This document shows, piece by piece, positions 31,197 through 46,765 of a DNA stretch of 53,079 nucleotides. The DNA lies in assembly GCA_937901015.1 (NCBI GenBank), contig CALCGQ010000010.1, forward strand, positions 1 to 53,079. Reading direction: 5' to 3'. Positions within the stretch are counted from its first letter, which is position 1, and each line of letters starts with the position of its first letter. The position numbers were made by a program, and so were the translations under genes. A model generated the notes under the pieces. That model had not been told where the DNA came from. It saw only the letters and a program-made list of their open reading frames with translations, and did not search any database. This DNA is from an uncultured Bacteroidota bacterium (GTDB lineage: Bacteria > Bacteroidota > Bacteroidia > Bacteroidales > F082).

Positions 31197-34100
31197 CTAG
31201 ACTTTCCTTTTCAACAAGTACAAATAAGCATCTTCTAGATTTGCCTTAACCAACTGAGCATCTTCATTGGGAGCTTTTTCTGATAAACATCTTACACGAA
31301 TAATATCATTTTCTCTCATGTGGTGAATCACAGTAAGGTCATCTTTAATATCTTCATATTCAGATGGAGTCAGGTTCATTGTCCAGATTTTCCCCTCAGC
31401 AATTTCAGCCATATCAATTGGTCTTCCAAGATAAACCACACCTCCTTTTTTCATAACCGCTACTCGGTTACAGGAACTGGCAACATCTTCAATAATATGT
31501 GTTGAGAAAATTACAATTCGATCCTGGCTAAGTTCTACTAATAAGTTTCTAAATCTGATTCTCTCCCGAGGATCTAATCCAGCAGTGGGCTCATCAACAA
31601 CAAGTATTCTGGGCAAATGCAATAATATTTGAGCAATTCCAATTCGTTGTTTCATACCTCCTGAAAAAGAACCAATCTTTCCATTGCGATTATCAAACAT
31701 ATGAACAGCCTTTAGAACATACTCCACCCTTTCTTCTCTTGCCTTTTTATCATATAGCTTTTTAAGAATTCCAAGATAATTTAAGAAATCCCAAGCGGTC
31801 ATGTTTTCATACATTCCAAATTCCTGAGGAAGATAACCTATCAAACCCTGCAGCTCTTCACGGTTTTCCTTTAGGTCGATATCATTAATGGTAATTTGTC
31901 CGTAGCTGGGTTCCAATATTCCACAAATAATTCTCATTAGAGTTGACTTTCCTGCACCGTTGGGTCCAAGTAAACCAAACATTCCAGTTTCAATATTGAA
32001 CTTAACACTTGTAACAGCTTTAAATGGAGTCTTCTTTTTACCGAGAATAGGAATAACCATCACAAAACGGTAGTATATTTTTCTGATACCCTTAAACCAA
32101 CCCTTTAATCTGTTTATATCAACCTTGTCTTTATGAATCTTATCAGATGTATAACTAATGGATGATGCTAGGTACCAGATTACTCCAGTTGGAATTACAA
32201 GTCCAATAAGTCCGTAGATGCTATAAAAACTGTAGAGAGCAATTGCAGGATATAACCAGTAGAAAAGGCCAAATAGAACTTTTGAAATAATTCGGATAAA
32301 CTTCGCTCTATCAGACCCTGCGGTAAAGGTTTTCAATGGTCCCAATAACAATAGAACCAACATGTAGAAGATAATTTGCAATATAAAATACCAAAAACCT
32401 CCTTCAATGTGGTGATAGATTAAATAGTATGAGAATGCAATTAATGGTAACTGCCAAATCAGGCCACCTACGATTGTTTTACCAGAAGCAGTATCATGTA
32501 TACCAAGTCGTTTTCTGATGTTTAACCCTGATTTCCATTCTCTCATGAATTGACTATCCCAATCATAGATCTTAACCACATTCCGAATTTCAATGAACAA
32601 CGACTCATCTTCACCAATTAACTTTTCATTAGCCTTTCTTAAACTGGTTTTAATGAAATAGATGGCTGATGGTACAATTATGATTAGTACAATAAAATAT
32701 ATCAACTGCCATACTTTGCTATCAACCTCTGTGTAAATGTAATAAGAGCCCACCGTCCACAATATTGCCTGAACAATTTTTATAATGATATTCTGTTCTC
32801 TCATCCAACTTAAAGCTGATTGAAGACCAGAGTAAAATGTTGGAATAAATACTAGGGTAAGTAAGGTACTAAGTGCCAAACCTCCAATTACAGTAATTGC
32901 GAAAGGAACACCAATTTGAGTAACATATTCAGCCTTTCCAAGTGCTAATGGTATGAGTGCAATAATGGTTGTTATGGCGGTAATTAAAATTGGTCTAACC
33001 CTTGCTAATCCAGCTGTCATCAATGCTCTGGTCTGACGATTGCCTCTTCGTTGCAGAACACGTGTATAATCAATCATTATAATACCATTGTTTACCACAA
33101 TACCTAGTAATATGAGGAAGCCCGTGAATACATTTGCATTCATGATTGATGTACCTGTTAGAATTAGTAATATCAATGAACCAACTGCTGCAAGAGGTAT
33201 GGAAAACATCATTACGATTGGCATTGTAAATGATTCGAATACTGAAGCAAGTATCATATAAATTAGCAATACAGCCATTAAGAGTAAGAATCCAAATTCT
33301 CCAAGTTGATCATCTTCGTGTACAACTTCGATGACCATATCCGAACTCATACTAATATTTTCGATCAAATCATCAACCTCAGCTCTTGCTGCAGTTAGCA
33401 AGTCGTTTTCATCGTTTACTTCATCAAGAAATTCATAGGAAACCACTATTCTCTTTTCTTGGTTTGTTCTTTGTATTGTTGATAAACCAGTTGTGAAATT
33501 GAAGTCGCTTACATTCTGAAGCTCGAAGGTTGTACCTGTATTTCCACGTACATTTAATGTTTTCAAATCATTGATATTACGATCGGCGATATTCGGATCA
33601 ATATCTGGCATTTTTATTTGAATGTCGAACTCTTCATTACCCTGCTTCAATACTACCCCACTCGAAAAACCTGGTTGAAACGAATTGAGTTCAGAAAGCA
33701 CTGACGTTAGCGGTATGTCATAAATAGACATAAGCTGTTTATCGAAAAGCAGCTGTACTTCAGGACGTTTTTGTGGAACCTTTATATCAATACGTTTTAT
33801 TGATGAAATTTGTCCCAGATAATATTTTACATCCTGAGCTTTGTTTTGCATTTGGTCAAAATCCTGACCCTTAATTATTATCTTCTCTTGCTGAGTACCG
33901 ATACCAAGAATTCTTGCCATTCCATCTTCATCATCAAACCCACCACTTCCAAATTTATTTCCCGATGCAGGGGGATCCCATGAAAATTCAGCTTGTTTAA
34001 AATCCTGAAGGTTCTCAAGAATATCATTTTTTATGCTTGGGATATCCATATTCCTTGCATCCCGGTAGTCATCCAAAAGTGTTATTGTGAGAACAGCTTC

Positions 34101-35897
34101 TTCTTCATAGATTTGACTAAGTAAATCTTTCTTTTCTTGTATACTGTCAAGCTTCTTTTCAACCTCTGCAATTAACAGATCTGTATTTTCCAGCGTTGTT
34201 CCACCTGGCATGGTTACGTAGAGGTTTATGTCTTTTATCTCCGGCTCTTCTGTAGAGAAAGTGCTTATCCCTAAACTAATCAGTAATGCTATAAAGAATG
34301 CACCCAAGGCTCCCAGTATGATTCTACCCGGATTTCGCATACTCGTTTTCAGAAATACAAGGTATATCTGTATTAGGCGGTTATGGTGTGATATTCTCTC
34401 AAAAACTACAGCATTTGCACTTTTTCTTACACTTAAGAAAACATATGTTATCATTGGTATAAACAACAATGCTACTGCAAGTGAGACTAATAATGTAGAA
34501 ATAATTGATACTCCAATGTGTTTTCCTAATAATCCTATGAAGAAATTAGTTGAAAAAACAAATGGAAGAAATACGGTTACTGTGGTTAAAGTGGCAGCGA
34601 TGATCGATCTTGAAACTTCCTTGGTTCCCTGAATAACAGCTTGCCCAGTAGGCATATTCTTGGCAGCAAGCCGATATATATTTTCAAGAACAACTACACT
34701 ATTGTCGAGCAACATACCTATTGCTAACGCCATCCCCAACAGCGTTAAACTATTGATGGTAATATCATATGCATAAAAGAAATTGAAAGCCGTATATACT
34801 GAAATTGGGATCGCAAGAGCAACTGCTATTACCAGCTTTAGGTTTCTGAGAAAAACCCAAAGAATAAAAATCGCAAGGAGACCACCAATTAGGGAAAGTT
34901 GTATAATGAGGTCGATATTCTTCTCCATTATTTCAGCTGAGTTGTTTTGAATTACAAGCTCAATATCCTTTCTGCTAAACTCTTCATTAAGAGAGGCAAT
35001 AAGTTTTTCGGTTGTTTCTGCCAATTCAATTACATTTGCTTGTGAATCACGGGTTAACTGAATTGTAACAGATTCTTTTCCATTAACTCGGCTGTAGGAA
35101 TCCTGCTCCTTCAGACCAAAGTGAATGGTTGCGATATCCTTCAGTTTTACTCCTTCTGATTCAATAATTACAACCTCATTTAACTGGTTTACATTCACGA
35201 ACTCACACACAGTATTCACAGCATGGAGACGATTGTTTTCATTAACCTTACCAACATATGTTCTGGCAAGGCTATTTGCATTTATTGCCGACCGTACATC
35301 AGCTGGGGTAATATTGTAACTTTTACAAATATCTTCTTTGAGAATTATATCTACTGACTTTTCACGTCCACCAAAAATTTCAGCATTGGAGATTCCATTA
35401 AGATTCTTAAACTTGTTTACAATTTCCTGTTCAACAACCTGCCTAACACGATCAACACCGCCGCTACCTCTGGCTTGAATTGTCATGAACATATTATTCA
35501 GTTGCTCCAGATCAAACTTAAATACCTGAACCATAAACTCTGAGGGAAGTGTTCCTTTTACCTCATCAACCTTTTCAATTAACTTTAAGTAAGCGAGTTT
35601 AATATTGGTGGATTTATTGAAAGACACCCTGATTGTTCCCTGTCTTTGACCGGCATTGGATTCTATTTTTTCAACGCCTTTTAAAGTACCAATTGCCCCT
35701 TCCAATGGAATGATTGCTTGCTTTTCCATATAACCGGGATCAACCTCCAAAGCACTTCCCACGTTTACAAACAAAAATGGAATTGTTGCATTAGGATATA
35801 ACTCAACAGAAAGTTGTTTATAGGAAAACCAACCCAACATGGTCATTGCCGTGAAGAGCATTGTTATTAATACCTTTCGTTTTATTATAAAACTCAT
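31197..35897 (-). CDS. RND efflux permease fused to six extra membrane helices and an ABC ATPase domain
   Basis: 1566 residues in one continuous frame. Residues 1-1035 are a full HAE-type RND pump: N-terminal helix, periplasmic porter loops, and the TM4 motif LLDNSVVVLEN with Asp398 (next residue Asn, as in many non-AcrB members); TM10 GIVVNNGIIMIDY. Residues about 1041-1246 hold six additional hydrophobic segments not found in RND pumps. Residues about 1285-1566 are an ABC ATPase: Walker A GPNGAGKST (1311-1319), signature SGGMKQR (1412-1418), Walker B with Asp1435-Glu1436, and STHI switch His. All ATPase motifs are intact. The even number of extra helices places the ATPase in the cytoplasm. 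Co-operonic with a second RND, adaptor and TolC. Confidence 0.9.
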   Translation of the reverse strand: MSFIIKRKVLITMLFTAMTMLGWFSYKQLSVELYPNATIPFLFVNVGSALEVDPGYMEKQAIIPLEGAIGTLKGVEKIESNAGQRQGTIRVSFNKSTNIKLAYLKLIEKVDEVKGTLPSEFMVQVFKFDLEQLNNMFMTIQARGSGGVDRVRQVVEQEIVNKFKNLNGISNAEIFGGREKSVDIILKEDICKSYNITPADVRSAINANSLARTYVGKVNENNRLHAVNTVCEFVNVNQLNEVVIIESEGVKLKDIATIHFGLKEQDSYSRVNGKESVTIQLTRDSQANVIELAETTEKLIASLNEEFSRKDIELVIQNNSAEIMEKNIDLIIQLSLIGGLLAIFILWVFLRNLKLVIAVALAIPISVYTAFNFFYAYDITINSLTLLGMALAIGMLLDNSVVVLENIYRLAAKNMPTGQAVIQGTKEVSRSIIAATLTTVTVFLPFVFSTNFFIGLLGKHIGVSIISTLLVSLAVALLFIPMITYVFLSVRKSANAVVFERISHHNRLIQIYLVFLKTSMRNPGRIILGALGAFFIALLISLGISTFSTEEPEIKDINLYVTMPGGTTLENTDLLIAEVEKKLDSIQEKKDLLSQIYEEEAVLTITLLDDYRDARNMDIPSIKNDILENLQDFKQAEFSWDPPASGNKFGSGGFDDEDGMARILGIGTQQEKIIIKGQDFDQMQNKAQDVKYYLGQISSIKRIDIKVPQKRPEVQLLFDKQLMSIYDIPLTSVLSELNSFQPGFSSGVVLKQGNEEFDIQIKMPDIDPNIADRNINDLKTLNVRGNTGTTFELQNVSDFNFTTGLSTIQRTNQEKRIVVSYEFLDEVNDENDLLTAARAEVDDLIENISMSSDMVIEVVHEDDQLGEFGFLLLMAVLLIYMILASVFESFTMPIVMMFSIPLAAVGSLILLILTGTSIMNANVFTGFLILLGIVVNNGIIMIDYTRVLQRRGNRQTRALMTAGLARVRPILITAITTIIALIPLALGKAEYVTQIGVPFAITVIGGLALSTLLTLVFIPTFYSGLQSALSWMREQNIIIKIVQAILWTVGSYYIYTEVDSKVWQLIYFIVLIIIVPSAIYFIKTSLRKANEKLIGEDESLFIEIRNVVKIYDWDSQFMREWKSGLNIRKRLGIHDTASGKTIVGGLIWQLPLIAFSYYLIYHHIEGGFWYFILQIIFYMLVLLLLGPLKTFTAGSDRAKFIRIISKVLFGLFYWLYPAIALYSFYSIYGLIGLVIPTGVIWYLASSISYTSDKIHKDKVDINRLKGWFKGIRKIYYRFVMVIPILGKKKTPFKAVTSVKFNIETGMFGLLGPNGAGKSTLMRIICGILEPSYGQITINDIDLKENREELQGLIGYLPQEFGMYENMTAWDFLNYLGILKKLYDKKAREERVEYVLKAVHMFDNRNGKIGSFSGGMKQRIGIAQILLHLPRILVVDEPTAGLDPRERIRFRNLLVELSQDRIVIFSTHIIEDVASSCNRVAVMKKGGVVYLGRPIDMAEIAEGKIWTMNLTPSEYEDIKDDLTVIHHMRENDIIRVRCLSEKAPNEDAQLVKANLEDAYLYLLKRKV

Positions 35898-39128: not shown

Positions 39129-40178
39129 TTATTTAACAACTTTTACTTTTGATTTATTTCGAAGTGTTTCATAACCTTTAGTGACCATTTTTTCCTTTAT
39201 TTCCAAACCAGATACCACTTCTACATATTCAGGGTTTTCCAAACCGAATGTAATTACTCGCTCTTGAGCCAGCCCTTTATCGATTACAAATACCGTATTA
39301 CCACGTTGTTTTGAAAGGATAATATTTTTAGGAATTACAATGATACTATCCTTGGAAGCAACAATAATTTCACCTTTAGCAAACATCCCCGGACGCAATA
39401 ACAGTTCTTTATTTTTAATGTTTACAACTGCTTTAAACGAACGAGACTGAGGGTCGATTGATGGTGATAACTGAGCAATAACACCTGTCAGAGTATCATC
39501 AGGAATTGTATAATTCATAATCCTAACTTTCTGACCCACCTTAACTATTTCCATATTCTTAACAGCAAGGTTCAGATCCATCAACAAATTTCTGTAATCC
39601 ATCATCCTAAGTACATCTGTGGAAGCCTCAATCCTAGTGCCCGAAGTTTTGTATGGTAATTCAACTATGGTTCCGCTAAATGGAGCAACAACATTCATTT
39701 TCTTTAGTCGGATTAGAGCATCCTCATATGAGTATTTTGAGTTTATGAATTCTATTTCCGAATTTTTCAGTTCGCTTAAGGTAACACCACCCTTTTTGTA
39801 AAGTGATTTTTGCTTTTCAAATATCTGTTCTGATATTTCCAGTTGTAGCTCCAGAGACTTTATCTTAATATTATTTTCATACTCCTTATCTTCAATACGG
39901 AGAATTTCAGCACCTGCTTTTACATAATCACCAAGTGCATAAGGTTTCTTGGTTGCGGGATTTTTCATGAGCTGATAACTACCACTGATTTCAGCTTTTA
40001 GAGTTACTTCCTTCACAGGATTAACAGTTCCTGTTGTTGAGATATACTCTTCAAGTGAGCCGGGTGTTATTTCCATAACCGAAACAGGTACACTTATGTC
40101 TTTGTTAAGATCTTTTCCTTCGTCATCACAAGATGCCAGCAGTACCGTTGCCAATAGGATTATAGCTATTCGTTTCAT
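39129..40178 (-). CDS. RND periplasmic adaptor (HlyD/AcrA family) lipoprotein
   Basis: 349 residues. Lipoprotein signal VLLASCDD. Mature domains in order: membrane-proximal and lipoyl strand (TGTVNPVKEVTLKAEISGSY), a short coiled-coil hairpin (about 110-150: LELQLEISEQIFEKQKSLYKKGGVTLSELKNSE), the second lipoyl half (VVAPFSGTIVELPYKTSGTRIE) and beta-barrel (LRPGMFAKGEIIV). It joins the RND pump to TolC in the periplasm. Positioned 9 bp after the TolC gene and 69 bp before the RND gene. Confidence 0.92.
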   Translation of the reverse strand: MKRIAIILLATVLLASCDDEGKDLNKDISVPVSVMEITPGSLEEYISTTGTVNPVKEVTLKAEISGSYQLMKNPATKKPYALGDYVKAGAEILRIEDKEYENNIKIKSLELQLEISEQIFEKQKSLYKKGGVTLSELKNSEIEFINSKYSYEDALIRLKKMNVVAPFSGTIVELPYKTSGTRIEASTDVLRMMDYRNLLMDLNLAVKNMEIVKVGQKVRIMNYTIPDDTLTGVIAQLSPSIDPQSRSFKAVVNIKNKELLLRPGMFAKGEIIVASKDSIIVIPKNIILSKQRGNTVFVIDKGLAQERVITFGLENPEYVEVVSGLEIKEKMVTKGYETLRNKSKVKVVK

Positions 40179-40187
40179 AGTAGTATT

Positions 40188-41678
40188 TTAATTTTCTAAT
40201 TTTATATTTTCTTGAAGCTCCTTGGGAATAAATGATGTGTTGTTTTCAAAATCCCAAAGAGATTGAACTTTCATGTTAATGATTTCCAGTCTGTAATTAA
40301 TAAGAGCAACTACCAGAGCAGTTTTTTTCTCGGAAAGCTGATTCTGGAATCGCTGAAGATCGATACTTGTAAGATCTCCATTTTGATATCTTTCGAGATT
40401 TATTTCATATGTAAGTTGTGCATTTTTCTCATTTTGTTTGGCTATATCAATTTGAGATACAAGGTTTTGAAGATTACGGTAAGTACTTCTTATATTAATA
40501 ATAATATTGTTCTTTTGATCTGTAAGATCAATTTCCTTTGACTCAATATTAATCTCAGCAGCTCTAATATTTGCTTTTCTCTGACCCCAATCGAAAAGTG
40601 GAATTGAAAAGGTGATACCAAGAGCAGGGCTGTTTGTTGGTTTGTCATAGATATTACCGAATGTGGGATCATTACCCATGACTCCCAACGACAAGCTTAC
40701 ATCACCACGGAATTCATTTTGTGCAGATGTTTCCGTAAGATCAAACTCTGCCATTTTTAAATCAATATTTCTCTGCGTAAGTTCCAATCTCTGGCTTAAC
40801 CCATTCTCAATGGCCTTTTCAATATTTACATAAATAAGCTTAAAATCAATATCTGACACAACAGATATTTCATCATAAAGTGATAATCCAATTAATAACT
40901 TAAACTGATCACGTGCATTATCAAGGTCAACTTTCGAGTTGTCAAGATTGGATTCACTGGTAGCATAATTTAGCTCACCCTGAAGTAGTTCTTCCTGAGC
41001 GGATAATCCTGCTTCAACCTTACTTCTAATAATTTCCAAACTTACCTTCTGGTTATCAAATTCCTCTTGTGCAATCTGTACAGAAGTTTCCTTCTGATAT
41101 ACAGAATAAAAAGCCTGATTTACCTGATATTCCATATTTAGCATCTCAATTGCATATGCCATTGTAGCGGTTTCCAGATTGAGTCTGATTTTGGCCAGAT
41201 TAAGTTTTAGACGGTTATAAGTAAATAATGGTTGGTCATATTTTACATAAAGGGAGTTATTAAACCCTTTATCTTTATAAATATCATTATTCGCTTCTGA
41301 AAAGTTATCCTGATAACCAAAGTCGTTTCTGATTGTAAGCAAACCATCGGTCCATTTTACAGGCTGAGTAACCACAAAACTTGCACTAGCACCTTTGTTC
41401 TCAGATGTATACCATTGTGAGAAACGATTGTCGTAGCTCTGCTCTCGCGAAAAACTAACAGGAGTGATATCAAGAAAAAAGTTTGACTTCAATGAAGCCA
41501 GCTGTGCATTCAGATACTCCCTGTTCATATCCATATTCATCCTCGACTTTTGAATTGAAGGACTGTTTTCTATGGCAATATCCATGGACTCCTCTAAGGT
41601 TAATACTCTTTGTGAAAAGGTATAACCCTGAAGTGTCAGTAGACATATAATCAATAATGGTTTCACTATTTTCATCAT
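40188..41678 (-). CDS. TolC-family outer-membrane efflux protein
   Basis: 496 residues; signal peptide to about residue 22 (GYTFSQ). Two repeated helical hairpins (LTLEESMDIAIENSPSIQKSRMNM in the first, LELTQRNIDLKMAEFDLTE in the second) and intervening strands follow the outer-membrane efflux protein pattern. It forms the trimeric exit duct across the outer membrane. The gene sits between the large ABC-2 permease and the adaptor, so it serves both the ABC and RND parts of the operon. Two start codons adjoin (MMK); the second is as likely. Confidence 0.92.
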   Translation of the reverse strand: MMKIVKPLLIICLLTLQGYTFSQRVLTLEESMDIAIENSPSIQKSRMNMDMNREYLNAQLASLKSNFFLDITPVSFSREQSYDNRFSQWYTSENKGASASFVVTQPVKWTDGLLTIRNDFGYQDNFSEANNDIYKDKGFNNSLYVKYDQPLFTYNRLKLNLAKIRLNLETATMAYAIEMLNMEYQVNQAFYSVYQKETSVQIAQEEFDNQKVSLEIIRSKVEAGLSAQEELLQGELNYATSESNLDNSKVDLDNARDQFKLLIGLSLYDEISVVSDIDFKLIYVNIEKAIENGLSQRLELTQRNIDLKMAEFDLTETSAQNEFRGDVSLSLGVMGNDPTFGNIYDKPTNSPALGITFSIPLFDWGQRKANIRAAEINIESKEIDLTDQKNNIIINIRSTYRNLQNLVSQIDIAKQNEKNAQLTYEINLERYQNGDLTSIDLQRFQNQLSEKKTALVVALINYRLEIINMKVQSLWDFENNTSFIPKELQENIKLEN

Positions 41679-41747: not shown

Positions 41748-44700
41748 TCAATTCTCGACCCATTTAACTGCATCAGCAAACACCATTGATCCAACGGATT
41801 TGTTGCTAAATTCAACCTTTGCAGTAGATGGTGTAATATAGTAAGTTCCCAGATAATTCCAGCCATTCTCAACATCACCATCTGTGAGATTTATATTATC
41901 TATTCCCCCTTCGTGGTGAACACTAAAGTTATAGTCAGCTTTTTTCGTTTGTCTGCGTCGCCCGTTCAGGTTAATTTTCTCAATATGGCAATACACATCA
42001 TAATAACCTTCATTATTAATGGGACCATTCCATGTTGCTTTCTTCTCATCAGATCCACTTTTAGTGTAAATAGCAGACCGAATATACTTTCCGTAGAAAC
42101 CTGAACGTAGCACTTGTTGCCAGCCTGGTGGAGGGTTCCAGTATCTGATACCTGAATATTCATACTCATGATCTTTTTTCTTATCCACTAGTTTTTTGAG
42201 ATAACTTACCTTATCGCTCTGAGAATATTCAAATAGGCTGTCTTCATTGTCAACGATAATTTCACCATCAACAAGAATGTTGTCAAATACTTCACATTCC
42301 TTTATCTCGTCAAATACATCTACTTTCCGGGTTTCACTAAATGATTCCAGATCATAAATAAGATTGTTTGGCAAATTTAAAGATATATGAGTATATAGAT
42401 TCATACGAACTGGTTCGGTTGCAAATACAAAACCGATCTCCTTTGCAGTACCTGCTGGTATAAATATCTTTTTTGTAAAGTCTGGAGGATCATCACTATC
42501 ATTGTCCCGATTATTGGGATCATATAGATCTATATTTATAGTAACAATACCATCAGTAGTTTCAGGGTTTGCTATCTTAAACTTAATTTGATATTTGGTA
42601 TATTCATCAACTCTGATTTTATATGTTTCGAGATCTTTCAACATGAATCCTGGTAAACTTTGGCCATAATACCATTGATTAACATCATCAATAATGGACT
42701 CTCCAAATCTTTCTTGCATCATATTGTCAAATTCAATCAGGCTAAAAGAACCATGCATATTTTTTTCAATGAATTCGTCTAGCAAAGTGTTGAACTCAAC
42801 ATCACCATAGCGAGCTCTAAAAACAGAAAACAGGTAATCACCCTTGGCTATTATTAATTCATGAAGAGCTATTTCATCATTATCGGTTTCTAACAGTTTT
42901 GTTAGTTTAGAGTAGTTTTCAAGGGATGATTTCTTAAGTTCAAGATTAACCTTTTCATCTTTACTTAAATCTGTGAAGAACCGTCTGTATGATGAAATGG
43001 GATTTGAATACCTGTCTTTAAGATATGCCTGTAGGGATAAATTTAACGCAGGCCACCTGTGTGAATCCAGTGATGTAACAAATGTTATATAATTTGGAAA
43101 TAGTGAAAGTGTATTACGATCCATCCTCCTGAAACTATACCATTCAGTATGGTTAGCCATGAAGTTGCCCCTTGCAAAACGCTTTAGAATTCTAGATTGT
43201 AGCTCTGTGGGGGTTATTTCTTCTTTGTTTCTTCTCATGCTGCTTTCAGTCCTCTTTTTTCTCTTCTTAAAGTCAGTTTCTTCAAGAAGGATCCCTTTTT
43301 CAGAGTAGAAAGTTATTTCAGGCTGTACCGCATCACTACTAATGGACCATATATGTTTGTCAATGGTAAACTGGATTGGAACTTCTGCCAGAGCAAAGCG
43401 TTTAAATGGATATTGGAAACCAATTTGTGTTTCATATTCATTTTTTAAATCACGAATGATTCCAGGCAGACTATCGGTAATATCTGTAAAATATTCCATA
43501 TAGTATTCGTTGCCAGCAATGGTATATATACTGTATTCAATGGAGTCAACTTCAATGGTGTTGTTAATATAATCGCCTATTAACAAACTTATTTGAGGAA
43601 GAGCTACTTCCGGTGAAAACTTAAACAAACCCGGCTCTGGATTGTTCATTTCACCTTGCGAAATCGATTGGTATCTTGGGTCAGTTTCAACGGTCATTGA
43701 GAACCTTGTGAAATCCGGTGAATGACTCGCGGGACTTTCAGTTGCGTAACCAACCCCAGAAATAGGATACCAAAGCGCATCGCGAGTTAACAAAACAAAG
43801 TCCTTGTTTAAGTAAGCATATCGTTTCTTAAACCTAAATATTACAAATGAGAAATTATCCTTAAACTCATCGAGGTTCTGATCCAGGAAGCAAGTATTTT
43901 CATTGATGGTTCCTTCATAAGAAAGCGAAAGAATATGTTTACTGAATGGTGTAATTTCTTTTGGTGGAACGATTTTTATAATTTGTGATTCACGAATGGG
44001 AATAATTTGTGCTCCATCGAATTTTATTTCATTGACTTTTAATGAAGGATTTAAACTAAATATAAGTGTATCGATTACTGTTTCATTTGGATTTGAAATT
44101 GTAAGTTCTGAAACAACATTGATTGTTTCATTTTGGTGTTTTAAATATATATTACAAGAATCAACTACAGACTTAGGGTATGCAAAATACTTATTATTTA
44201 AGCTTATCATTTCTTTTTTCGAAGCAACAGTATTTTGTTTGTTTGTTATATACTTATAAGCAGATCCAGCACCTAGGAAAAGGAAAATCATAGATATAAT
44301 AATGGGCAGAAACCGTAGTCGTTTTGATTGAGGTAGGCGGTCCAACCTTGTGATTGTGAAAAATATTAAAGATAATCCGATAAATAGGTAAATACTCCGA
44401 TGAATTAGCGTTTCATTGAAATCAGCAAACCCACCAATTGTGGATTTCATCATCGGAACCTGATATGCAATAAAGTCAAATACCTGATAGAACCTTTTGT
44501 CTAAATAGAAAACAGATACTGCAATGTAACCCAAGAGAATGATAAATGTAATTGCTTGATTCTTTGTCGTTACCATTAAGAAAAATGATAAACCTAGGAT
44601 ATAAATTAAAGTAGGAACACTAATTAACAAAGGGTAATATAAATACTCCAGTATACCTACTGAAGCATCTCCACTTAAGAATGAAAAACCAATGCCGATT

Positions 44701-45080
44701 GAAAGGGCTAGGACATTTAAAATCGTAAACACTAATAATATACCTGTTGTTTTACCAAGGATATATTCAGCGTTTGTCATTGATCGTGCATAAATAACCT
44801 CTACGGTATCGTTTTTTTTATCTTGTTTAAGAAATTCAGATGCAAGGAACACGGCAACAATCGCCTGACCAAGATTAAGCACAAGTAAATTTACATAAGG
44901 AAGGGAAGCAGGTATTGCTCTAAATATAAATGGCGCACCGCTGTCGGTTAGGTTTGCTGAAATGTTGAAAATAACCAAAACTACTACGGATAAACCAGCA
45001 AAAATTCTAAAAAACCAGCTACGTAACAAAGTACGCATCTCATAGATTCCAACAGTTATTATTTTGTGTAGAGAGATCAA
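41748..45080 (-). CDS. ABC-2 permease with large periplasmic M1-like and golvesin-like extension
   Basis: 1110 residues. Residues 1-275 are an ABC-2 permease with six to seven helices (VGIYEMRTLLRSWFFRIF; EFLKQDKKNDTVEVIYARSMTNAEYILGK). A further helix leads to a periplasmic part of about 800 residues. Residues about 300-800 resemble the M1-aminopeptidase-like domain that some Bacteroidota permeases carry (N-terminal beta saddle, helical C-terminal part with LDEFIEKNMHGSFSLIEF), but no HExxH zinc motif occurs anywhere, so it should be inactive. The last ~140 residues look like a golvesin C-terminal-like domain (FSVHHEGG ... NGWNYLGTYYI ... VFADAVKWVEN). The partner ATPase is the upstream gene. 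The extension may bind substrate or cell-wall sugars. Confidence 0.78.
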   Translation of the reverse strand: MISLHKIITVGIYEMRTLLRSWFFRIFAGLSVVVLVIFNISANLTDSGAPFIFRAIPASLPYVNLLVLNLGQAIVAVFLASEFLKQDKKNDTVEVIYARSMTNAEYILGKTTGILLVFTILNVLALSIGIGFSFLSGDASVGILEYLYYPLLISVPTLIYILGLSFFLMVTTKNQAITFIILLGYIAVSVFYLDKRFYQVFDFIAYQVPMMKSTIGGFADFNETLIHRSIYLFIGLSLIFFTITRLDRLPQSKRLRFLPIIISMIFLFLGAGSAYKYITNKQNTVASKKEMISLNNKYFAYPKSVVDSCNIYLKHQNETINVVSELTISNPNETVIDTLIFSLNPSLKVNEIKFDGAQIIPIRESQIIKIVPPKEITPFSKHILSLSYEGTINENTCFLDQNLDEFKDNFSFVIFRFKKRYAYLNKDFVLLTRDALWYPISGVGYATESPASHSPDFTRFSMTVETDPRYQSISQGEMNNPEPGLFKFSPEVALPQISLLIGDYINNTIEVDSIEYSIYTIAGNEYYMEYFTDITDSLPGIIRDLKNEYETQIGFQYPFKRFALAEVPIQFTIDKHIWSISSDAVQPEITFYSEKGILLEETDFKKRKKRTESSMRRNKEEITPTELQSRILKRFARGNFMANHTEWYSFRRMDRNTLSLFPNYITFVTSLDSHRWPALNLSLQAYLKDRYSNPISSYRRFFTDLSKDEKVNLELKKSSLENYSKLTKLLETDNDEIALHELIIAKGDYLFSVFRARYGDVEFNTLLDEFIEKNMHGSFSLIEFDNMMQERFGESIIDDVNQWYYGQSLPGFMLKDLETYKIRVDEYTKYQIKFKIANPETTDGIVTINIDLYDPNNRDNDSDDPPDFTKKIFIPAGTAKEIGFVFATEPVRMNLYTHISLNLPNNLIYDLESFSETRKVDVFDEIKECEVFDNILVDGEIIVDNEDSLFEYSQSDKVSYLKKLVDKKKDHEYEYSGIRYWNPPPGWQQVLRSGFYGKYIRSAIYTKSGSDEKKATWNGPINNEGYYDVYCHIEKINLNGRRRQTKKADYNFSVHHEGGIDNINLTDGDVENGWNYLGTYYITPSTAKVEFSNKSVGSMVFADAVKWVEN

Positions 45081-46200: not shown

Positions 46201-46506
46201 TTAAAGTTCTATATCATCTATATATTCTTCATCTTCAAGACTAAACTCAACACTCATTGCTTCTTCATATTTAGTTTGGTCTGAAACTTCTTCGGTATTA
46301 AAAGGTATATCATCTATGTAATTTTCTTCTTCAAAAGAAAAGTCGGCAGTAGGTGATTCTATATTGTTTATTGATATTGTCTCATTTTTAGCTGGTTCGC
46401 TACCTGATGTGGATTCTGAAAAGAATGCGATTGTTGCGTTTACGTGTAGTGAGATTAGAACTGTTAGAGAAACGATCAACAAGTTATTTATAAAATTTGT
46501 TTTCAT
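46201..46506 (-). CDS. Small secreted acidic protein with duplicated YIDDI motif
   Basis: 101 residues from ATG 46506 (the GTG before it adds one residue). Signal peptide of about 27 residues (VSLTVLISLHVNA). The mature part is very acidic and contains two copies of the pattern F-S-x-E-(E/D)-E-x-YIDDI: FSFEEENYIDDIPFNTEE and FSLEDEEYIDDIEL, the second at the very C-terminus. No cysteine. Similar short secreted proteins with EExYIDDIPF-like motifs recur in Bacteroidota, without known function to my knowledge. It is 179 bp upstream of the exporter operon and on the same strand, so a substrate or modulator role is possible but unproven. Confidence 0.7.
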   Translation of the reverse strand: MKTNFINNLLIVSLTVLISLHVNATIAFFSESTSGSEPAKNETISINNIESPTADFSFEEENYIDDIPFNTEEVSDQTKYEEAMSVEFSLEDEEYIDDIEL

Positions 46507-46765
46507 CACTTTAGTTATTTGTAGTTGTTATTCATTGGCAAAAATATGTTCATTTGGTGCGCTGGTAAACGATAATTAGGTGAGCGGAGTATTTTTTTCG
46601 GTGAATGGGGGAAGATAGGTGTTGGGTTGTCATTGTTGTCGGGTAATCGGGTTGTCTAGTTGTTGGTTTAGCATGGTGATAGGTTAACATCTAAACAATG
46701 AAAACTATAATAATAACCACGAAAACCACGAAAACAATGATATCCCTACCCTTCCATTTATTCAC

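Follow-up and report, generated by a model that had tools for sequence, protein, structure and literature searches.

Our results identify a real fusion of an RND permease with an ABC ATPase, in which the ATPase is highly conserved, and place the fusion gene in a conserved seven-gene operon. The operon lies in the window, by which we mean the whole stretch of 53,079 nucleotides that was analysed, and its genes follow one another in the order ATPA, PERMM1, TolC, adaptor, RND1, RND2::ABC, PERM2 (Table 1). Primary (ATP-driven) and secondary (proton-driven) transporters are treated as separate classes, and one conserved chain that carries both engines, within a fixed gene set and in cultured Bacteroidota, raises the question of whether the two energy sources couple. 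We suggest, as a reading for which we see even chances, that the products of the seven genes form a single exporter that spans the envelope and unites the two transporter classes.

The first-pass annotation had described the gene as an uninterrupted frame of 1566 codons that encodes a full RND permease and an intact ABC ATPase, and this description holds. The frame is a single ORF with no break at the junction; in Pfam, ACR_tran matches the RND permease over its full length (500.8 bits, residues 2-1023) and ABC_tran matches residues 1297-1439 (103.3 bits), and each score clears its cut-off by a wide margin. Walker A (GPNGAGKST, 1311-1319), the signature (SGGMKQR, 1412-1418) and the pair D1435-E1436 are all in place, together with the A-loop Y1111, Q1358, the D-loop D1442 and H1467. 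None of the 25 NCBIfam rows listed for the fused protein, out of 191, reaches its cut-off. Conservation was followed in 71 full-length fusions, namely the window's copy and the 70 of the best 80 GTDB loci with frames above 1500 aa, which are thus complete copies. All 15 positions checked are invariant in all 71: Asp398 and Asn399 in TM4, Asn936 and Asn937 in TM10 and Arg968 in TM11 of the RND part, and Tyr1111, Gly1316, Lys1317, Gln1358, Ser1412, Gly1413, Asp1435, Glu1436, Asp1442 and His1467 of the ATPase.

Table 1 Coordinates of the fusion gene, its parts and the other genes of the operon in the window.
Feature	Position	Strand	Basis or remark
RND2::ABC fusion gene	31197..35897	(-)	single ORF, 1566 aa plus stop; ACR_tran + ABC_tran
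RND permease domain, residues 1-1023	32829..35897	(-)	Pfam; PDB relatives MdtB, CmeB, MexB, AcrB
Two extra membrane helices after the RND domain, residues 1024-1097	32607..32828	(-)	AlphaFold model, hydropathy
First strand and A-loop (IEIRNVVKIYD) of the ABC ATPase, residues 1098-1112	32562..32606	(-)	sequence and structural alignment
Predicted four-helix membrane insert inside the ATPase fold, residues 1113-1290	32028..32561	(-)	model, structural alignment, hydropathy
ABC ATPase body, residues 1291-1566	31200..32027	(-)	Pfam, alignment, motifs
PERM2, predicted ABC-2-like permease, 234 aa	30452..31156	(-)	model; directly downstream of the fusion
RND1, second RND permease, unfused, 1040 aa	35937..39059	(-)	Pfam
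Periplasmic adaptor	39129..40178	(-)	RND_mfp, above its NCBIfam cut-off
TolC-family outer membrane factor	40188..41678	(-)	OEP
PERMM1: putative ABC-2-like membrane domain, M1-aminopeptidase-like domain, Golvesin_C	41748..45080	(-)	profiles
ATPA, separate ABC ATPase, 295 aa	45134..46021	(-)	NCBIfam; clade distinct from the fused ATPase

The fusion recurs well beyond the window. A whole-protein search of 61 genomes (the window's own and 60 relatives) recovered the complete fusion from the own genome, five of the seven further genomes of the genus, G043 and G059, together with pieces cut by contig ends in G022, G047, G058 and G050, the last holding the RND part only. Across the phylum, six of 395 genomes, the own included, gave strong matches to the membrane insert (E <= 4.3e-29, frames of 1561-1640 aa), while nearly all the weaker matches listed were ATPase frames that match near Walker A only. 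A scan of GTDB contigs with an alignment of the linker returned 414 stretches, 364 of which encode relatives; the best 80 of these 364 were retained, and 70 of them have a frame above 1500 aa with both domains, eight are cut by contig ends and two contain frame breaks, inside the ATPase in L120 and inside the RND domain in L131. The same best 80 include isolates named Marinifilum, Labilibaculum, Ancylomarina, Perlabentimonas and Prolixibacter as well as MAGs that belong, by record label, to Deferribacteres, KSB1 and Krumholzibacteriota. Complete fused frames in independent assemblies and named isolates confirm that no sequencing join underlies the gene and, with the unbroken junction, they reduce to a negligible probability an assembly or gene-calling artefact, which the incompleteness of the window's genome (411 contigs) might otherwise have suggested.

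Relatives that encode the two parts as separate genes, which the first-pass annotation had named as the finding that would speak against a fusion, were sought with a query restricted to the RND domain. Among the 37 carriers that match at E <= 1e-200 in 295 genomes of the order, a threshold that a strongly diverged unfused relative would escape, no such separate-gene form was found. In 32 of the 37 the RND domain runs on into a long frame, of 1515-1627 aa in 31 of them and of 1334 aa in G706, where it starts at a contig edge. In the other five the frame breaks off within the RND domain, in four of them at a contig end (G050, G058, G613, G684); in G517 the frame stops about 150 bases before the contig end, in sequence that no longer matches. 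Walker A was read directly in G000, G043, G059, G507 and G696, and the other long frames count as fusions by their length.

Between the RND permease and the ATPase, six extra membrane helices had been proposed at first, and their number is supported by an AlphaFold model of the C-terminal part; their placement had to be revised, in that two precede the ATPase and four interrupt its fold. In the alignment, a strand with the A-loop (IEIRNVVKIYD, about residues 1098-1112) comes first, and some 180 residues separate it from FKAVTSVKFNIETGMFGLLGPNGAGKST. The ABC ATPase domain of the fusion is not continuous, its first strand being set apart from the body by the insert: the distance from the A-loop Tyr to Walker A is 193-202 residues in the 66 of 71 fusions that match the pattern, compared with 22 in ATPA. 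Hydropathy gives two segments before the first strand in 66 of the 71 and one in five, and four segments in the insert in 63 and three in eight, at a lax cut-off that yields two plus four in most homologues, a stricter one yielding one plus four in the window's own copy. The model covers residues 990-1566 as a single chain, was made with 57 sequences in the alignment (56 of the 70 complete GTDB copies retained at 90% redundancy) and is of middling confidence (pLDDT 79.1, pTM 0.55). It has the order helices, strand 113-121, helices, strand 304-313 in model numbering. LptB, TM0544 and NosF align to it from about model residue 110 (window residue ~1099) against their own chain residue 1-2, and for LptB (4p33_A) 230 of 235 residues are aligned with a Z of 25.1 and an rmsd of 2.2; the output consists of the first and last aligned residues only, from which, with the sequence as a second basis, we infer the pairing of strands. 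The ATPase fold is accordingly drawn in Table 1 as a prediction, split by a four-helix membrane insert. An ATPase fold that tolerates such an insert between its first strand and the remainder would be unusual. The insert belongs to no recognised family, with only single weak Pfam matches in single members, and has no relative in the PDB by sequence. Among 13 full-length homologues it is the least conserved region (mean pairwise identity 0.35) and the ATPase body the best conserved (0.76). A reading of the six helices as an ABC membrane domain that precedes an ABC ATPase was rejected, four of them lying inside the ATPase fold.

The ABC membrane domains are likely encoded by separate genes, namely PERM2 and the N-terminal part of PERMM1. 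PERM2 is predicted to have an ABC-2-like fold: its single-chain model (pLDDT 86.6, from an alignment of 60 of 76 sequences picked by hand) reaches a Z of 16.1 to chain Y of NosDFYL and of 14-16 to ABCA and ABCG in VIA-align, where helical models can reach a Z of about 14 through arrangement alone. In Foldseek the best E is a weak 0.014, with none at 0.001 or below, and the first 43 rows appear, partly from their titles, to be ABC transporters. Pfam returned no match for PERM2, and a profile comparison of PERM2 with the N-terminus of PERMM1 was not significant (E 0.12, probability 0.5). PERMM1 has a Golvesin_C domain at its C-terminus (Pfam) and is weakly similar to M1 aminopeptidases at the profile level (best E 2e-4), and HExxH is absent from 14 of 15 homologues. 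The one PERMM1 of the 15 with HExxH, L035 12993-16412, has it at residue 885, probably C-terminal to the expected M1 site. ABC2_membrane_2 was matched in one of two PERMM1 homologues scanned, at 27.9 bits against a cut-off of 27.2; Pfam gave no such match in the window's own PERMM1.

Stand-alone relatives of the ATPases offer a possible source of this arrangement. Eight hand-picked places were fetched, one of which (L182) was set aside as another part of the operon itself. Each of the remaining seven ATPases, of which L177 and L178 are close copies, adjoins a frame of 1056-1233 aa, the long permease frame in L176 ending near a contig edge. Six of the seven permeases were examined for helices and HExxH, and all six have 12-13 hydrophobic segments followed by an HExxH string, and Peptidase_M1 was found in all four that were scanned with Pfam. 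Because the stand-alone permeases combine 12-13 segments with an M1 peptidase, it looks as if a doubled membrane domain had in the operon been split, with one part in PERMM1 and the other in PERM2. In a tree of 31 ATPases, the fused ATPase (NBD2, 12 sequences), ATPA (12) and the stand-alone proteins (7) form one group each, with support of 100/100, 99/99 and 99/97, respectively. A single origin of the fusion is therefore compatible with the tree, which has no wider outgroup and came with a long-branch warning. Across 12 operons the pairwise distances of ATPA, NBD2, RND1 and RND2 correlate (r 0.95-0.98), as expected if the operon is inherited as a unit, shared species history also contributing.

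The complete operon is found in the same order in 12 places, the window and 11 fetched loci; the other fetched loci are cut by contig ends. The five operons fetched from the phylum-wide draw keep this order. Among the best 80 of the 364 GTDB loci, 68 extend far enough to show the gene immediately upstream of the fusion, which is RND1 in every case, and 75 the gene immediately downstream, which is PERM2 in 74; a complete PERM2 is present in 76 of the 80. These 80 loci do not extend to ATPA, which was counted in 19 separate loci fetched further upstream and found in 17, the other two being cut within PERMM1. Flanking genes vary, both in the GTDB loci and in the further loci, and none recurs consistently enough to give a clue to the substrate.

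Some loci have features of their own. PERM2 is not directly downstream of the fusion in L132, the one such locus of the 75. In one genome of the genus, RND1 and the fusion are separated by a 178-aa ORF that resembles an accessory gene inserted there (L029 11901-12434). Upstream of ATPA in the window is a 102-aa ORF (46201-46509, reverse strand) with a signal-peptide-like start and the acidic repeat EEENYIDDIPF / EDEEYIDDI, found only in the genus among the fetched operon loci; it is possibly a secreted peptide or a substrate. Small ORFs akin to it flank the stand-alone ATPase and permease/M1 pair in L177 and L178. Elsewhere the region upstream of the operon contains, as read by eye, ECF sigma/anti-sigma-like pairs (L036, L162, L171) or small exported proteins (L034, L040, L169, L170) that are rich in Gly, Arg and Gln and resemble periplasmic stress proteins. 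In L157, L158 and L159 it contains a regulator that by eye looks GntR-like, a membrane protein and another ABC ATPase in the same orientation. The window's genome also has another RND gene (L001, G000:C234) with a frame of 1453 aa, about 400 residues beyond the length of an RND permease.

In our model of a single exporter, the fused ATPase would pair with ATPA to form a two-ATPase motor, while PERM2 and the N-terminus of PERMM1 would make up the membrane part of a heteromeric type V (ABC-2) exporter; we regard a heteromeric ABC assembly of this kind as probable. The ABC motor would be held next to the RND trimer by the four-helix insert and the two helices that precede it, and the ABC part would remove a hydrophobic or lipid-like substrate from the inner membrane by extraction or flipping, the sole basis for such a substrate being the resemblance to ABCA, ABCG, NosY and LptB. 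The periplasmic pseudo-peptidase/Golvesin part of PERMM1 might then pass the substrate to RND1/RND2, and the proton-driven RND part would expel it together with the adaptor and TolC. We rate a substrate relay from ABC to RND a little short of evenly likely.

The fusion further poses the problem of how an RND pump with three-fold symmetry is joined to an ABC transporter with two-fold symmetry. In E. coli, MdtB and MdtC function together as a heterotrimer, B2C (Kim et al. 2010, as cited in PMC4338810). If RND1 and RND2 likewise assembled at 2:1, each RND trimer would carry one fused ATPase and have one ABC unit docked, which would resolve the mismatch of symmetries. We put forward only tentatively the machine that follows from all of these steps, with two energy sources, an asymmetric RND trimer and one ABC unit per trimer, in which ATP would serve to extract the substrate from the inner membrane and the proton motive force to expel it.

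That the seven genes encode a single exporter is suggested by the fixed gene order, the parallel divergence of the parts and the invariant catalytic residues, and also by the resemblance of the PERM2 model to the membrane domains of NosY, ABCA and ABCG. We count against it the profile comparison of PERM2 with PERMM1, the weak Foldseek E, the middling model of the C-terminal part and the exceptional locus L132. Alternatively, the fusion could merely tether two independent exporters, setting their stoichiometry or localisation, with neither substrate nor force passed between them. RND1 and ATPA are ordinary separate polypeptides, as such a tether would allow, yet a mere tether should break at times, and there is no unfused version among the 37 carriers (five of them cut) in the 295 genomes, while the five operons from the phylum-wide draw keep the same order; we therefore consider a tether unlikely.

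In another scenario, the fused ATPase drives the RND trimer directly, hydrolysis acting through the extra helices to add to or replace the proton motive force. A covalent connection by way of a membrane insert that lies inside the ATPase fold would fit such a drive, as would the residues of both RND permeases, which have Asp-Asn in TM4 and Asn in TM10 and so lack D408-K940 (AcrB numbering), the relay pair of AcrB-type pumps. In all 71 copies of the fusion, N399 stands in place of the second TM4 Asp and N936 in place of the TM10 Lys. Against this stand the invariance of the TM4 Asp398 in the same 71 and the identical DN/NN pattern of L004, an unfused RND protein of the same genome, which shows that the pattern does not distinguish the fusion; the 12 complete operons, moreover, also encode a separate ATPase and two putative ABC-2-like permeases. 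Direct drive is decidedly improbable in our judgement. The narrower idea that ATP replaces protons owing to a lost relay was rejected on the same two grounds, and since the RND part keeps its TM4 Asp, we see no sign that ATP replaces the proton motive force. Finally, the ABC part might act as a sensor or gate, with ATP binding or ABC flux regulating the opening of RND-TolC. The few loci whose upstream ORFs read by eye like ECF sigma/anti-sigma or periplasmic stress proteins would be in keeping with regulation, but these neighbours are not conserved, and the presence of all the ABC parts points to a working transporter, so that we hold a role as sensor or gate to be very doubtful.

A coupling of the two engines in one exporter, if true, would make the system categorically new. 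No RND-ABC fusion appeared in the titles and abstract openings of the papers that our literature searches returned, and a term search found none in the searched portions of PMC8277102, a review of tripartite pumps; InterPro or TCDB may nevertheless contain an entry for it.

Among known systems, the HAE-1 tripartite pump MdtABC-TolC shares the RND fold, the adaptor, the TolC-family factor and the TM4 Asp, and it too has two different RND permeases in one operon. Here, in contrast, an ABC ATPase is fused to one of the RND permeases, putative ABC-2-like subunits belong to the operon, and Asn replaces the second TM4 Asp and the TM10 Lys. With type V (ABC-2) exporters such as NosFY, the DrrA and GldA types and ABCA/ABCG, the likeness lies in the fused ATPase, which is nearest to ABCA in the PDB by sequence and to GldA and DrrA among the NCBIfam matches listed (25 of 191); it differs from theirs in being part of an RND permease and in having its fold interrupted by a predicted membrane insert, and the putative membrane domains are divided between two unlike proteins. 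The stand-alone ABC ATPase and permease/M1 pair has a related ATPase (40-45% identity) and a permease with an M1-type domain. The six stand-alone permeases tested carry 12-13 hydrophobic segments and HExxH, whereas PERMM1 has seven segments, a Golvesin_C domain and no HExxH, and the operon's permease is coupled to RND genes. MacAB-TolC resembles our system in that an ABC protein works with an adaptor and TolC; MacAB is not known to have an RND part. The parts of the operon are of known kinds; what looks new is the way they are combined, along with the splitting of the ATPase and the unit of seven genes.
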